Positions 1,898 to 27,064 of a stretch of 27,175 nt of DNA are shown piece after piece. The translations under genes were made by a program, and so were the position numbers. Under the pieces are notes generated by a model. It ran no database searches. It had not been told where the DNA came from and was given only the letters and a program-made list of their open reading frames with translations. Positions within the stretch are counted from its first letter, which is position 1. Each line of letters starts with the position of its first letter. Origin of the DNA: a virus; IMG/VR virus record IMGVR_UViG_3300006738_000063, positions 1-27,175 of that record; one strand, 5' to 3'.

Positions 1898-2140
1898 ATG
1901 AAACAACTACACTATTTAGAAGGAGACGATCGTCCTGTATTAGATTGGGAGTCGTTTTGCTCTGAAATGTTGAATATGTATAATACCCATTCTGAATCTA
2001 TTCCAGAGCTGCGAATTCCACAAGAAGAATTAAGCAATACAGCAAGAGAAATATTCGAAGCAATGATATACGATTACGCTATGTCTAGGACGGCAAAAAG
2101 AAAAATGGAGCATTTGAATTATCGACTAGCTGAGGCATAA
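1898..2140 (+). CDS. hypothetical protein, 80 aa
   Basis: A small acidic protein. The N-terminus is mixed (HYLEGDDRPVLDWESF), followed by two predicted helices. An AAAGGG sits about 12 nt before the ATG, slightly too far for an ideal ribosome site. It ends in TAA directly abutting the next ATG, so the two are probably translated together. No recognised family. Confidence 0.65.
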   Translation: MKQLHYLEGDDRPVLDWESFCSEMLNMYNTHSESIPELRIPQEELSNTAREIFEAMIYDYAMSRTAKRKMEHLNYRLAEA

Positions 2141-2410
2141 ATGCAAGTTACCCTTCCTTATAATATTCCTATAGAAAACATTACCGTTACAAGTTTACCA
2201 CAATTTTCGGATTATCCGTATGTAGTACAAACCGAAAGGAGTAAGACTATGGAGTTAGATGATATCGTGTTACGATTGGATATTGCATTGTCTGATAGGG
2301 ATTGGGAAGCAATTAGATTATTGATGGAAGATCTACGAGAAGAATTAGAATTAGATGGCTCGACTACAAATGACTACGGTGATGATGATTGGGCAGTACC
2401 ACACGAATAA
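2141..2410 (+). CDS. hypothetical small acidic protein, 89 aa (or 53 aa from an internal start)
   Basis: Two starts are plausible. The first ATG (2141) follows directly on the preceding TAA, with GAGG just upstream. A second in-frame ATG at 2249 has a much better AAAGGAG with 7-nt spacing and begins a compact acidic helical protein (MELDDIVLRLDIALSDRDWE...). The C-terminus is Asp/Gly-rich. The region before 2249 stays open, so I keep the longer form. The function is unknown. The gene ends 10 nt before the tmRNA. Confidence 0.6.
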   Translation: MQVTLPYNIPIENITVTSLPQFSDYPYVVQTERSKTMELDDIVLRLDIALSDRDWEAIRLLMEDLREELELDGSTTNDYGDDDWAVPHE

Positions 2411-2467
2411 AATTAAACATGGGCCCGCTCGGTATCGACGGGTGTTTTTTGACAATTGAGTGCAGCA

Positions 2468-2499
2468 GAGATTGAGTAGATCTCGAGACAAAATGCTCA
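2468..2499 (+). other. tmRNA pseudoknot PK1
   Basis: Stem 1 is GAGAT (2468-2472) with ATCTC (2480-2484). The loop TGAGTAG contains TGAG (2473-2476), which pairs with CTCA (2496-2499) to make an H-type pseudoknot. It occupies RNA positions 48-79, matching PK1 of E. coli tmRNA (about 49-79). This fixes the expected place of the resume codon about a dozen bases downstream. Confidence 0.8.
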
Positions 2500-2510
2500 C
2501 AAACCAATAT

Positions 2511-2627
2511 GGCGATAAATCGCTTGACGGGTTGGAAATTGATTGGCATATGGCCAATACAGAACGGATGTTTGACGTTTTCGTTGAACCCGTAATGGAT
2601 TCCCAACCGACTTACGCATACGCTTAA
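2511..2627 (+). other. tmRNA tag-peptide reading frame (38 codons plus stop)
   Basis: Counting from PK1 as in E. coli (resume codon at RNA position 90), the resume codon is GGC at RNA position 91. From there the frame stays open for 38 codons, starting GDKSLDGLEIDW and ending MDSQPTYAYA, then TAA at 2625-2627. The other two frames stop at 2516 and 2593 and do not give an Ala-ending tag. E. coli has 10 codons. The end resembles the usual small/hydrophobic ClpXP-type degron (YALAA) but with Tyr in place of Leu. The extra sequence is self-complementary: CGGGTT (2528-2533)/AACCCG (2587-2592), and ATTGGC (2542-2547)/GCCAAT (2553-2558). If the stem is instead an extra structural domain, the tag could start near GTA/ATG at 2592-2597. 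Confidence 0.7.
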
Positions 2628-2636
2628 GTCCTTGGG
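2602..2636 (+). other. tmRNA P5 stem enclosing the tag stop codon
   Basis: GACTTA (2609-2614) pairs perfectly with TAAGTC (2625-2630), and CCCAA (2602-2606) with TTGGG (2632-2636). The tag stop TAA is in the 3' strand of the stem, as in bacterial tmRNAs, where the end of the tag frame is part of P5. This independently supports the reading frame and stop of the tag. Confidence 0.8.
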
Positions 2637-2831
2637 TCGTTCAACACCCGAGTATAAAATAAGTTGAACACCAACTCTAGTGTATGAGTATAAAGACACC
2701 AGTTAAAGGATACGTTCTGCAAAAGAAATCCACATGGTTGTTTGTCGGTAGCTACCAATGGAAATCGACTAAGCTGTAACGACTTATTGTTAATAGCAGA
2801 CCGGACGGGAGTTCGACTCTCCCCGGGTCCA

Positions 2832-2942
2832 CAACGAACTAAAATTATGTTGCGAAATATTTCAAAGGTTTCACATACAAGAGGACGGGTCAATGGGTTC
2901 TACCTATTAAAAAAGAATCCAAAACACAATAGGAGTGACGCG
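2832..2942 (+). other. tmRNA-porin intergenic leader
   Basis: These 111 nt between the tmRNA 3' end and the porin start hold no tRNA and no clear hairpin followed by T residues. An in-frame upstream ATG at 2858 has no ribosome site. AGGAG at 2931-2935 serves the porin start at 2943. The absence of a terminator suggests that tmRNA and porin may share a primary transcript, with RNase processing releasing the tmRNA. Confidence 0.5.
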
Positions 2943-3725
2943 ATGAATACACTAAAAACAATCCTAACTGCTATCGTCTTTTTTGGCGGAATTACTTTCG
3001 CACAAGAAGAGGCTGTAGAAGCCGTAAATTCTTGGAGTGGTGAGTTCAGTACTGATATTACTTTTGGTGATACAGTATCAATGGGTTCACAATACACCGG
3101 AATTACTTTTAGCGGTGAAGGATGGAAACTTACATCGCACCTGTCAGAAGGTGGAATGAATGTAGAGGAAGCATATTACAATGTAGATGCTAAATTTACG
3201 TCCGTTACACTTGGACAACAGAGGATTCCCTTTGGTCTTTCTAATGCTTGGCATAGACCATCAGGAAATCCATTCGTTGGTGAACCAAGTTCTCAGGCTT
3301 ATGCCGTTGGACTTGGAGCATCTACTGAATTTGCGGGTGTAGGTATTGCTGGATTTTACGGCGATGGCGAAGCATATTCCATGAGAGCATCTTATGGTTT
3401 AGCTGGTCATACTGCTGGGGTTTCTATCAATAGTGATGAAGCACGTTTATTGGACGCAAGTGGAGAATTTTCACATGATTCATTTGGTTCAATTGCATCT
3501 TATTTTGAGTATGACCTTAGTGAAGAAACGAGTGGGGACTTATGGTATAGAGCCGTAATCTCGCCGTCCTTTACTAAAGGTATCACTGCTCTAGTAGGAT
3601 ATTCATCTGTTGGTGAGGATACCGAGACCATGTATGGTGTTGGTTATCGTTACGACAATTCTTACATTCGTACAGAATTGTCAGCAGATGGAGACGTCTC
3701 AGTACGAGTAAGTTATACCTTTTAA
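2943..3725 (+). CDS. porin-like outer-membrane beta-barrel protein, 260 aa
   Basis: The start at 2943 is chosen because AGGAG lies 7 nt upstream and the protein then begins with a good Sec signal peptide (MNTLKTILTAIVFFGGITFA, cleavage before QEEA). The mature part alternates polar and apolar residues in Gly/Ser/Tyr-rich strands. It includes a GQQRIPFGLSNAWHRPSG stretch, reminiscent of a porin constriction-loop region, and ends in VSVRVSYTF; a terminal Phe is the BAM-recognition signal of outer-membrane proteins. The expected location is the host outer membrane. It would let solutes through, replace a host porin, or alter the surface against further infection; these roles are inference. It is unusual cargo for a T4-like phage and probably derives from a bacterial host. 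Confidence 0.8.
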   Translation: MNTLKTILTAIVFFGGITFAQEEAVEAVNSWSGEFSTDITFGDTVSMGSQYTGITFSGEGWKLTSHLSEGGMNVEEAYYNVDAKFTSVTLGQQRIPFGLSNAWHRPSGNPFVGEPSSQAYAVGLGASTEFAGVGIAGFYGDGEAYSMRASYGLAGHTAGVSINSDEARLLDASGEFSHDSFGSIASYFEYDLSEETSGDLWYRAVISPSFTKGITALVGYSSVGEDTETMYGVGYRYDNSYIRTELSADGDVSVRVSYTF

Positions 3726-3864: not shown

Positions 3865-4395
3865 ATGCAAAACATAAACAAATACATAATATCAATAATC
3901 GCAGTTACAATGATTAATGGTTATGTTGCAGTTCATTTTATGAAGGAAAATAAACAAGTCTATCACGAATATTATACAGATTTATATTCTAAAAATGTAG
4001 AACTTCACCAGCAACTCGAAGAATTTTATTCGTATGGAATTAAAGTAGATGTAACAATGTATCAACCAGTATATCCACAAACAGATAGAACTCCAGATAT
4101 TACAGCAGATGGTACCAAATTTAATATTGAGGAAGCATCTAGATATCGCTATGTTGCATTATCTCGAAATTTACTAAAACGATGGGGTGGACCATTCGAT
4201 TACGGTGATTTCGTTTTGCTTAAAGGTACGCTAGAAAAAGATGGCGTTTACCAAGTTAGAGATACTATGAATGCTAAATGGGTAAATGTAGTGGATATTT
4301 TAGAATCTAAGGGTGTTAGACAATATAGGTTTAGCAACGTTGATTTATTTAAATTACCATGGACAAAAAAAGAGAAAGAGAAGGAGAATGCATGA
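3865..4395 (+). CDS. membrane-anchored 3D-domain (RlpA/MltA-C-like) protein, 176 aa
   Basis: One hydrophobic segment near the N-terminus (about residues 7-25) is an uncleaved anchor or signal. A short helical linker follows, then a 3D-type double-psi beta-barrel from about residue 62 to 160. Visible hallmarks are the Asp-rich TDRTPDITADGT, YVALSRNLLKRWGGPFDYGD, and VRDTMN...WVNVVDIL with Asp133 and Asp144. 3D domains occur in lytic transglycosylases and related cell-wall proteins, so a role in peptidoglycan remodelling or lysis in the periplasm is likely. AAAGGAAG gives a good ribosome site. The stop overlaps the HD gene start (ATGA). Confidence 0.75.
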   Translation: MQNINKYIISIIAVTMINGYVAVHFMKENKQVYHEYYTDLYSKNVELHQQLEEFYSYGIKVDVTMYQPVYPQTDRTPDITADGTKFNIEEASRYRYVALSRNLLKRWGGPFDYGDFVLLKGTLEKDGVYQVRDTMNAKWVNVVDILESKGVRQYRFSNVDLFKLPWTKKEKEKENA

Positions 4396-5138
4396 AATTA
4401 AGTGCAATCGAGATCAGTGAAAATTGGTCTGAGTTACAGTCTATTGTAGATGAGTCCTTTACGGGCGATCGACTAGAAAAAATACGGTTATTACAGGAGC
4501 ATTTTAAAAATCGTATGATGATTGCTCCGGCATCAGGAGTTAATTGGTTTCACAACGCGTTTCCAGGTGGATATGTTGCACACGTATTAAATGTTATTAC
4601 ATGGGCTAAGAAATATTATGGTTTGTTTGATGAGATGAATATGTATGTGGATGATTTATCTGATGAGACGGTAGTATTTTGTGCAATGTTTCACGATTTA
4701 GGAAAAGTCGGAAACTTAGAAAAGGATTACTATGTACCAAATCCGGATGGATGGAAAGCTAAAAAATATGGACGTCCGTACGATCATAATCCAGAATTAA
4801 ATTATATGACCGTTACAGATAGAGCAATGTGGATTTTAAATCAGTTTGAAATTCCCATGTCTGAAACTGAATATATCGGTATTAGAATGGCTGATGGTTT
4901 GTATGCAGATGCTAACAAGCCGTATTTTCTTGAAGGAGTAGAGTGGAAAACTATAAAGACAAATATTGGTTTTATAATTCACTATGCTGATTCTTCTTCG
5001 GCCAGACAAGAAAAAGAAAAGTACATGTTTTCAGGAGAAGCACCAATAGATTTTCCTAAAATCATGAAAGGTGTAACTAAAGAAGATCCAGTATTGGAAA
5101 ACCTGGATGTTGATAAATTGGAGGATTTGTTTAAATGA
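4392..5138 (+). CDS. HD-domain phosphohydrolase, 248 aa
   Basis: The start at 4392 is preferred over an in-frame ATG at 4359: AAGGAGA lies just upstream and the start forms an ATGA overlap with the preceding stop. The HD signature is complete: His64 (GGYVAHVLNVI), His101-Asp102 (FHDLGKVG) and a late Asp200 (HYAD) can form the metal-binding H...HD...D set. Such enzymes cleave phosphate esters of nucleotides, including (p)ppGpp or dNTPs; the substrate cannot be told from the sequence. An insert after the HD motif is rich in Tyr, Pro and Asp. The C-terminus (VLENLDVDKLEDLFK) is acidic and helical. Confidence 0.85.
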   Translation: MKLSAIEISENWSELQSIVDESFTGDRLEKIRLLQEHFKNRMMIAPASGVNWFHNAFPGGYVAHVLNVITWAKKYYGLFDEMNMYVDDLSDETVVFCAMFHDLGKVGNLEKDYYVPNPDGWKAKKYGRPYDHNPELNYMTVTDRAMWILNQFEIPMSETEYIGIRMADGLYADANKPYFLEGVEWKTIKTNIGFIIHYADSSSARQEKEKYMFSGEAPIDFPKIMKGVTKEDPVLENLDVDKLEDLFK

Positions 5139-25774: not shown

Positions 25775-27064
25775 ATGTTTAAAAAATGTATATTGGGATT
25801 GTTACTGGTTTCATCTATACATGCACAGGATTTTATATTAAACTTTTTTAAGTATTCGACGGCATATGCAAGTTTCAGTTTAAATGCTCCAAGATATCAG
25901 GAAGATCGATTCAGTGTAGTTGGAGGTTTAGCAACTGGAGAATTGGAAGTTGAACGAGAAGAACGAGAACTTCAAGCCGATTTTCAAAAATCTTTTGGAT
26001 TGAGAAAAATTGGTCGATTTAATTACGAACCAAAACGAGGTGTTAAGAACGCTGGTGTTGGTGGAACTTGGTACGATGGTTCAGAAAAAAGTGCAAACGA
26101 AAATGCTACATTCGGTCCCGTTAAGGGATGGGAGTATTTAATAAAATTTACTGAAGGTCGTCGATGGGGTAATGAATATTTGAATCAAGAATACTGGTTG
26201 AGATATACTGGTAAGTGGTTTATGAGTAAAATAGGTTGGACGGAACTTGGATTAGAAGAGATAACCTACGGTCAAGGTGATTTGAGATTAAAGTGGACAC
26301 CAGAATTTTTAGGTAATCAATTAACATTTAGTGTTGGTGCAAAACATAGACAACATCCTGTATACGGATTTGATGCTATGATATTGGATACAACTTGGTA
26401 CAAAGGATCTTGGTGGGATTTTGCTGAAACCGCTTTCGGTGTGGATGATAACCGATGGTACATAATTGATGAAAATGGCGAGATACCAGAAGGTCAATTG
26501 GTGTACTATGATTCGGCTTCGGATTCTTGGATACCTGTATCGGGTGATGGACCGTTTTTTAATGGAATGGGTGAATTTATTGGGTATGATTACATGTGGG
26601 AAACTTCAGATGGAGAAATTATTGCGTGGACGGATAGAGAATTTTTCATATATCACTTTCCAGGATTGTTAGAATCATACATGAATGGAATAAAAAGGGA
26701 TTTAGGCTATCAAAGAGAAACATCTTTAGTATTGGGTTTAGATTATTATCATTATGCTGATAGATGGTGGGTACATGCTTGGGGCAATTGGATGCCATAC
26801 CATTACGGACATGATAAATATTCGTATCATAATGCAGCCGATTATATAGGGCACTTAGAAGAAGGTAAGGAACCACATGAGTTTATGTTTATGGAGTCGA
26901 TGTGGATGAGCTGGTATGATTATGATATAGGTGCAATTTTTGGAGTTAAAGTACAAGAAAATCTAGGCGTATTTGCGGAAGGTCGTTATCTTTATTACTG
27001 GGACAGACCAGCGTATGATTTTAAAGTTGGATTAAATTATCAGTTTGTAGGATTTAGTAATTAG
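25775..27064 (+). CDS. predicted outer-membrane or secreted protein, 429 aa
   Basis: A clear Sec signal peptide (MFKKCILGLLLVSSIHA, cleavage before QDF) without a lipobox is followed by a Trp/Tyr-rich sequence with alternating polar and apolar residues. Examples are NEYLNQEYWLRYTGKWFMSK and TSLVLGLDYYHYADRWWVHA. The end, FAEGRYLYYWDRPAYDFKVG then LNYQFVGFSN, looks like the last strands of a beta-barrel. The body is acidic with a long Asp/Gly/Pro-rich insert at about 225-300. It is the second such protein in the window. The host outer membrane is the likely location; the role could be superinfection exclusion, uptake or lysis. TGGAG is seven bases upstream. Confidence 0.65.
   Translation: MFKKCILGLLLVSSIHAQDFILNFFKYSTAYASFSLNAPRYQEDRFSVVGGLATGELEVEREERELQADFQKSFGLRKIGRFNYEPKRGVKNAGVGGTWYDGSEKSANENATFGPVKGWEYLIKFTEGRRWGNEYLNQEYWLRYTGKWFMSKIGWTELGLEEITYGQGDLRLKWTPEFLGNQLTFSVGAKHRQHPVYGFDAMILDTTWYKGSWWDFAETAFGVDDNRWYIIDENGEIPEGQLVYYDSASDSWIPVSGDGPFFNGMGEFIGYDYMWETSDGEIIAWTDREFFIYHFPGLLESYMNGIKRDLGYQRETSLVLGLDYYHYADRWWVHAWGNWMPYHYGHDKYSYHNAADYIGHLEEGKEPHEFMFMESMWMSWYDYDIGAIFGVKVQENLGVFAEGRYLYYWDRPAYDFKVGLNYQFVGFSN

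Follow-up and report, generated by a model that had tools for sequence, protein, structure and literature searches.

Introduction

The tags encoded by tmRNAs are usually viewed as short degradation signals of about 10 residues. A tag of about 27 aa is encoded by mf-SsrA of Mesoplasma florum. This longer tag has the end NYAFA, and Lon recognises it (PMC9382460). Among phages, ten tmRNAs have been described (PMC4131195), and a 2025 database, in which the commonest length of tmRNA tags in general is 10, holds 79 unique phage tmRNAs (PMC11915505). The RNA of phage DS6A consists of the tRNA-like domain only and has been proposed to be a decoy that sequesters SmpB; a similar molecule inhibits tmRNA (PMC4131195, PMC11915505).

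A preliminary description of the DNA studied here, made from its letters, regarded phage tmRNAs as limited to a few groups. That view is outdated, as 402 of 18,146 phage genomes carry a tmRNA, among them that of a marine, T4-like methylophage whose tmRNA is in two pieces (PMC9004378), and huge phages have SmpB as well as tmRNA (PMC7162821). Here we analyse the tmRNA locus of a viral record of 27,175 bases, the whole of which we refer to as the window, and find that the most unusual part of this phage tmRNA is its two-part tag, which comprises 34-43 residues in the family and 38 in the window.

Results

A full-length, one-piece tmRNA gene

When the whole record was searched with Rfam cmscan, a single match to RF00023 was returned, at 2421-2834 on the plus strand. 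With a score of 70.6 bits (E 7.7e-26) against a gathering score of 47, and a span of model positions 1-374, i.e. full length, the window tmRNA exceeds the curated covariance-model cut-off over the entire model. The gene is thus a full-length, one-piece tmRNA, as the preliminary description had proposed when it stated that the phage carries its own; the check that it suggested, a covariance-model search of 2400-2850 together with a search of related phages, produced this match and about 100 relative contigs, and its coordinates of 2421-2831 prove right to the discriminator base. From the match and the alignment of 55 relatives, we take the gene as 2421-2831 plus an encoded CAA. The discriminator base is 2831 and the encoded 3' end reads A-CAA, so CCA is absent from the gene; among 79 distinct relatives, just one encodes it. 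Twelve loci of the family score 70-103 bits against the Rfam tmRNA model. No sigma-70-like promoter was found ahead of the tmRNA in a search of 2000-3100, which makes co-transcription with the upstream gene more likely.

Relatives were collected in three ways. A first tag-independent pattern, placed on the 3' part of the tmRNA, gave 64 viral stretches, among which L009/L055, L036, L022/L042 and L011 resemble the window tmRNA and have a long open frame in common. A codon-level pattern from the N-terminal part of the tag gave 65 viral stretches, and 111 came from an anchor on the PK2 side (AACACNCGNNNATAAAATAAGTT) that was likewise independent of the tag and chosen against circularity. The tag motif is present, in a frame whose stop lies exactly 15 nt ahead of this anchor, in 105 of the 113 tmRNAs examined; six of the remaining eight begin part-way through the tag, with its end visible, and two (L180 and L204) are without a call. 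The 104 fully read tags reduce to 79 that are distinct in DNA and 76 distinct peptides. The same tmRNA occurs on about 100 other viral contigs. A DNA comparison with isolated phages gave chance-level matches only.

ARAGORN reported no tmRNA in the window, and among the relatives it either misses the gene in the same way or shortens the long tags, as in L036 (read as GNDQPTYAYAA), L022, L011 and L129. The database tags of such phages are therefore likely to be wrong, and tmRNAs with long tags are probably under-counted. Other long phage tags were called by the same program among the stretches of the first tag-independent pattern. One class, F/YEDAxxFV, has 23-25 aa (L002, L012, L015, L016, L028 and L061). 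Another, seen on contigs that reach 271 kb (L017, L018, L020, L021, L025, L027, L040, L053, L056 and L058), has the 24-residue tag GNTNFWSLVNESVNAPVTEELLAA or one very like it. Single tags of 27 aa (L043) and 28 aa (L030) were also seen.

RNA structure and covariation

We examined covariation in the 55 aligned relatives for P1, part of P2, PK1, PK2, the T stem and two candidate elements. Across these relatives 94.6% of cells are paired, a figure that is favoured by the tested structure having been drawn from the window's own sequence, and 24 pairs show two-sided changes, which are the stronger evidence. The covariation score of 0.220 compares with 0.095 +/- 0.004 for shuffles, none of 500 being as high; when partners were slid, the score was at most 0.059 and pairing fell to 35-44%. 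This covariation speaks for P1, part of P2, PK1, PK2 and the T stem.

The strands of P1, GGGCCCG with G3 (2421-2427) and CGGGUCC with U70 (2824-2830), form 7/7 pairs in the window and in 78 of 79 unique relatives, where several sequence versions occur with compensatory changes outside G3.U70. This alanine identity pair is itself invariant (79/79). The T arm (2807-2823) has the stem GGGAG/CUCCC and the loop UUCGACU, with two-sided changes in four of five pairs, and the part of P2 that was tested (2462-2466 with 2773-2777) is 100% paired, two of its pairs being two-sided. PK1 (2468-2499) contains the covarying helices P3 (2468-2472/2480-2484) and P4 (2473-2478/2494-2499); just 63% of aligned P4 cells are paired, probably due to local misalignment. 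PK2, 3' of the tag (2632-2669; helices 2632-2637/2646-2651 and 2639-2645/2663-2669), is 100% paired with two-sided changes in five pairs. The Ala-type acceptor, T arm, PK1 and candidate PK2 read by the preliminary description, and P2 in part, are borne out in this way.

A long, two-part tag under selection

Between PK1 and PK2 lies an open tag frame of 38 codons (GDKSLDGLEIDWHMANTERMFDVFVEPVMDSQPTYAYA; 2511-2627, plus strand), whose residues are encoded by 2511-2624 and whose UAA stop (2625-2627) stands just ahead of PK2. In E. coli, correct framing requires a conserved A placed 4 nt ahead of the resume codon (PMC2481249). The counterpart of E. coli A86, at -4 (2507), sets the resume frame and is A in 55/55 relatives, which, together with this ruler-like rule, provides independent support for the tag frame. 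The resume codon in the same relatives is GGC in 49, AGC in three, GGT in two and GAC in one. Alternative frames were rejected, as they are mostly closed by stops and lack the codon pattern of selection: over codons 5-15, frames +1 and +2 have pN/pS of 0.78 and 0.71, and stops in 76 and 65 of 79 tags, respectively.

The family follows a common plan, [G/S/D][D/E]xSLxGL[V/D/E][I/V]DWH[L/M/F]A, then a variable linker, then [Q/E]P[T/S]YAYA(A). The N-terminal module (GDKSLDGLEIDWHMA in the window; 2511-2555), with the conserved core SLxGLxIDWHLA, is present in 104 tmRNAs recovered with the tag-independent anchor, and the C-terminal module, QPTYAYA (2604-2624), is kept among relatives, with YAYA(A) at the end of nearly all tags. 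Two main kinds of linker occur, EYDxS... and xSEMGFDNFVEP.... In a literature search, with supplements and tag-length records outside its scope, no tmRNA with a tag this long or with this peptide came up, and we do not claim that it is the longest known. The tag had no match and no partner among PDB sequences, and tblastn against phage records gave a single match (E 6, 43% identity).

Nei-Gojobori counts were made over the 79 distinct tags. Codons 9-15 have a pN of 0.075 and a pS of 0.636 (pN/pS 0.118), and these counts point to clear selection as protein. Codons 1-8 give a pN/pS of 0.97 with a pS of only 0.168, GGG being invariant (79/79) and TTG present in 75 of 79; because of this low pS they look constrained as RNA, so the N-terminal module would not be purely a peptide signal. 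The six C-terminal codons have a pN/pS of 0.42.

Candidate sources of the RNA constraint are a small GCGA/UCGC hairpin over the resume codon (2512-2523), which is 97-98% paired and has two pairs with a few two-sided changes, and a helix between GGUUG and the CAACC of the QP codons, which is 96% paired across the 55 relatives with zero two-sided changes. The hairpin may explain the low synonymous change in codons 1-5. If the N-terminal part were conserved for such RNA reasons only (hairpin and GGGUUG/CAACC pairing), the peptide would be a long but ordinary degradation tag, and both the behaviour of codons 1-8 and the high pairing of the two elements fit that reading. We nevertheless judge it unlikely, given that in codons 9-15 residues are fixed while synonymous sites are free, that D and W are invariant while leucine is encoded by both TTR and CTN codons, and that the GGUUG/CAACC helix lacks any two-sided change.

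The phage locus

The tmRNA sits in a conserved gene order that runs from a small acidic protein, through the tmRNA, to a protein of 176-178 aa, a phosphohydrolase-like protein, a coiled-coil-like protein and further genes shared with the window. Over 99 loci, the 176-178-aa protein was counted in 73 (176 aa in the window; 3865-4395, plus strand; phrog_21574), the phosphohydrolase-like protein in 56 (4359-5138, plus strand; phrog_28876, E 5.8e-10) and the coiled-coil-like protein in 53. When the phosphohydrolase-like protein was used to look for further relatives, just four loci came up, L134 and L135 among them. Of the contigs with EDA-type tags, four (L012, L023, L033 and L061) also encode this phosphohydrolase-like neighbour.

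The small acidic protein (2141-2410, plus strand), directly 5' of the tmRNA, is syntenic in relatives: in 66 of 88, its homolog ends somewhere between 12 nt within the tmRNA and 14 nt ahead of it. Its core in relatives (among L009-L224) is xxxDWDxVxxLxxxL; in 20 of the 66 its stop falls inside the tmRNA 5' end, as LWG-stop read from TGGGGCTGA, and in a few loci a cold-shock-like protein takes its place. The case for this neighbour as an obligate partner of the tmRNA is weakened by its presence in L134 and L135, where the locus is kept with no tmRNA match. By eye, genes upstream of the tmRNA in many relatives (e.g., L106 and L119) resemble peptide deformylase (43 loci) or IMP dehydrogenase (33 loci). 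Two window proteins, encoded at 2943-3725 (directly after the tmRNA) and 25775-27064, have signal-peptide-like starts and appear beta-barrel-like by eye; neither has a Pfam or PHROG match.

In L134, the phosphohydrolase-like protein is 59% identical to that of the window and the flanking genes stand in the same order on both sides, yet the tmRNA and the gene that follows it are absent: at L134:3099-4025 about 110 bp separate the acidic protein from the next gene. This empty site with the same flanks marks the tmRNA as an accessory gene at a fixed site, with no assembly join. The preliminary description had named a chimera as one finding that would overturn it. Nothing in the window itself favours a chimera, or contamination of a phage contig by a host tmRNA, although binning errors do exist, as the misbinned contig L125 (below) shows; with about 100 other contigs that carry the same conserved phage genes around the tmRNA, in addition to the empty site, we give this explanation practically no weight and consider it excluded.

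Window proteins match the T4-type baseplate wedge families phrog_261, phrog_219 and phrog_6, and two of them are baseplate wedge proteins. Most of the other structural proteins have no PHROG match, and by matching proteins the nearest isolates are Flavobacterium phage immuto and Microcystis phage Mel-JY01. The source is a marine tailed phage, and the label T4-like given to it earlier applies loosely and is fair for the baseplate only.

SmpB, proteases and a candidate host

The window had been noted to lack SmpB, which would leave the phage dependent on host SmpB; 16 long related phage contigs, which are incomplete and do not represent whole genomes, yielded none either. A ClpP-like protease was found in one of the 16 (L225, on G185, the contig of L183), and ClpP was rejected as a general phage partner on this count. 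No phage-coded adaptor for the tag was identified.

A scan of 84,980 species genomes of prokaryotes found the tag pattern in a single place, contig L125 (NHIV01000037.1) of the MAG TMED198. Its matches to the phage family identify L125 as a phage contig misbinned in the MAG, so that anyone surveying this MAG would count two tmRNAs for the bacterium. The tmRNA of TMED198 itself (L128, 172 bits) encodes the 9-residue tag ADYGYAAAA. We read 19 further tmRNAs from the same GTDB family, 15 of which have the same or close tags (ADYGYVAAA, GNYSYSAAA and others), the remaining four being doubtful ARAGORN calls. The YxYAA end of the host-group tags resembles the ends of phage tags (SYSYAA, TYAYAA). One binned phage contig and these similar ends weakly suggest the TMED198 group as a candidate host. 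Its genomes encode SmpB in 17 of 23, ClpP in 20 and Lon_C in 19, and SspB in none of the 23. A search for the shared beta-barrel-like protein in 149 genomes of the MAG's phylum, run with no positive control, gave no match.

The gene could be host-derived cargo kept by chance, or its product a decoy that sequesters SmpB instead of tagging; there is precedent for the latter in DS6A and in the inhibition of tmRNA by a similar molecule, and the absence of the tmRNA from close relatives such as L134 shows that it is accessory. However, the tag frame, its stop, the resume A and the pseudoknots are all conserved, none of which a decoy or cargo would need, and the tag pattern is absent from bacterial genomes apart from the one misbinned phage contig. 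We therefore regard cargo or a decoy as very unlikely.

Discussion

We think it probable that the window encodes a working one-piece phage tmRNA that would carry out trans-translation via host SmpB and add a two-signal, phage-specific tag of 38 residues. According to this proposal, which follows the tmRNA pathway, the phage RNA would be CCA-tailed and alanylated by host enzymes (host AlaRS) during infection; once charged, it would bind host SmpB and EF-Tu, enter stalled ribosomes and add the 38-residue tag to stalled chains. The C-terminal end, (Q)PTYAYA(A), is probably, if with some uncertainty, a degradation signal for a host protease, which may be either ClpXP or Lon. Similarly, the SLxGLxIDWHLA module would probably offer a second site of recognition to an adaptor or some other protein, though this too is uncertain, and phage-tagged products might thereby meet a different treatment from host-tagged ones. 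As to interpretation, the preliminary description is supported in its reading of a phage tmRNA that would need host SmpB; the long, conserved, two-part tag was missed.

What the second signal would achieve is more tentative. It is possible, though we would not put it higher, that the phage takes over trans-translation and that its specific module routes rescued polypeptides to a different fate or partner. The tag would then be the first of any tmRNA known to us in which two such long protein signals are separately conserved. The tag might also confer a fate other than degradation, with a phage protein binding SLxGLxIDWHLA and recycling or inhibiting rescued host polypeptides, or with rescue acting as a sensor. 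A phage-specific module conserved as peptide, the absence of SspB from the candidate host group and a tag far longer than a C-terminal degradation signal requires would all suit such a role; since the conserved YAYA(A) end resembles known degradation tags, and neither a partner among PDB sequences nor an obligate neighbour emerged (the acidic gene also occurs without the tmRNA), we consider it rather improbable and favour the tagging tmRNA with a degradation signal at its C-terminal end.

About 100 marine phage contigs keep a tag of 34-43 residues in two conserved parts, one of them clearly selected as protein, where the candidate host group encodes a tag of nine. This suggests that phages alter the outcome of ribosome rescue, beyond topping it up, and long tags may be a common property of phage tmRNAs. 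SLxGLxIDWHLA, in the synthetic form SLDGLVIDWHLA, provides a concrete peptide with which to search for a binding partner or protease.

Comparison with known systems places the novelty in the tag. With bacterial one-piece ssrA (RF00023), the phage gene shares the full architecture of G3.U70 acceptor, PK1, tag frame, PK2 and T arm; it differs in its longer tag, 38 residues here and 34-43 across the family where the commonest length is 10, in the N-terminal module and in not encoding CCA. Complete phage ssrA genes are likewise carried by the mycobacteriophages Bxz1, Wildcat and others and by Bacillus phage G (PMC4131195), but these are other phages with other hosts, and nothing similar to the window tmRNA was found in 50,697 phage records. 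The OM43 phage Melnitz and the pelagimyophages (PMC9004378) are also marine T4-related myophages with a tmRNA; theirs is permuted, in two pieces and accompanied by a glutamine riboswitch, whereas that of the window is one-piece with a long tag. Parts of trans-translation are phage-encoded both here and in huge phages (PMC7162821), although an SmpB of the phage's own was not found in the 16 contigs. The M. florum mf-SsrA tag is also longer than usual and has an aromatic-alanine end (NYAFA, compared with TYAYA), but it is bacterial and shorter, its upstream part is unrelated, and its protease is known to be Lon, where ClpXP or Lon is proposed for the phage tag. Phage tmRNAs as such were already known, and the new aspect is the long, conserved, two-part tag.
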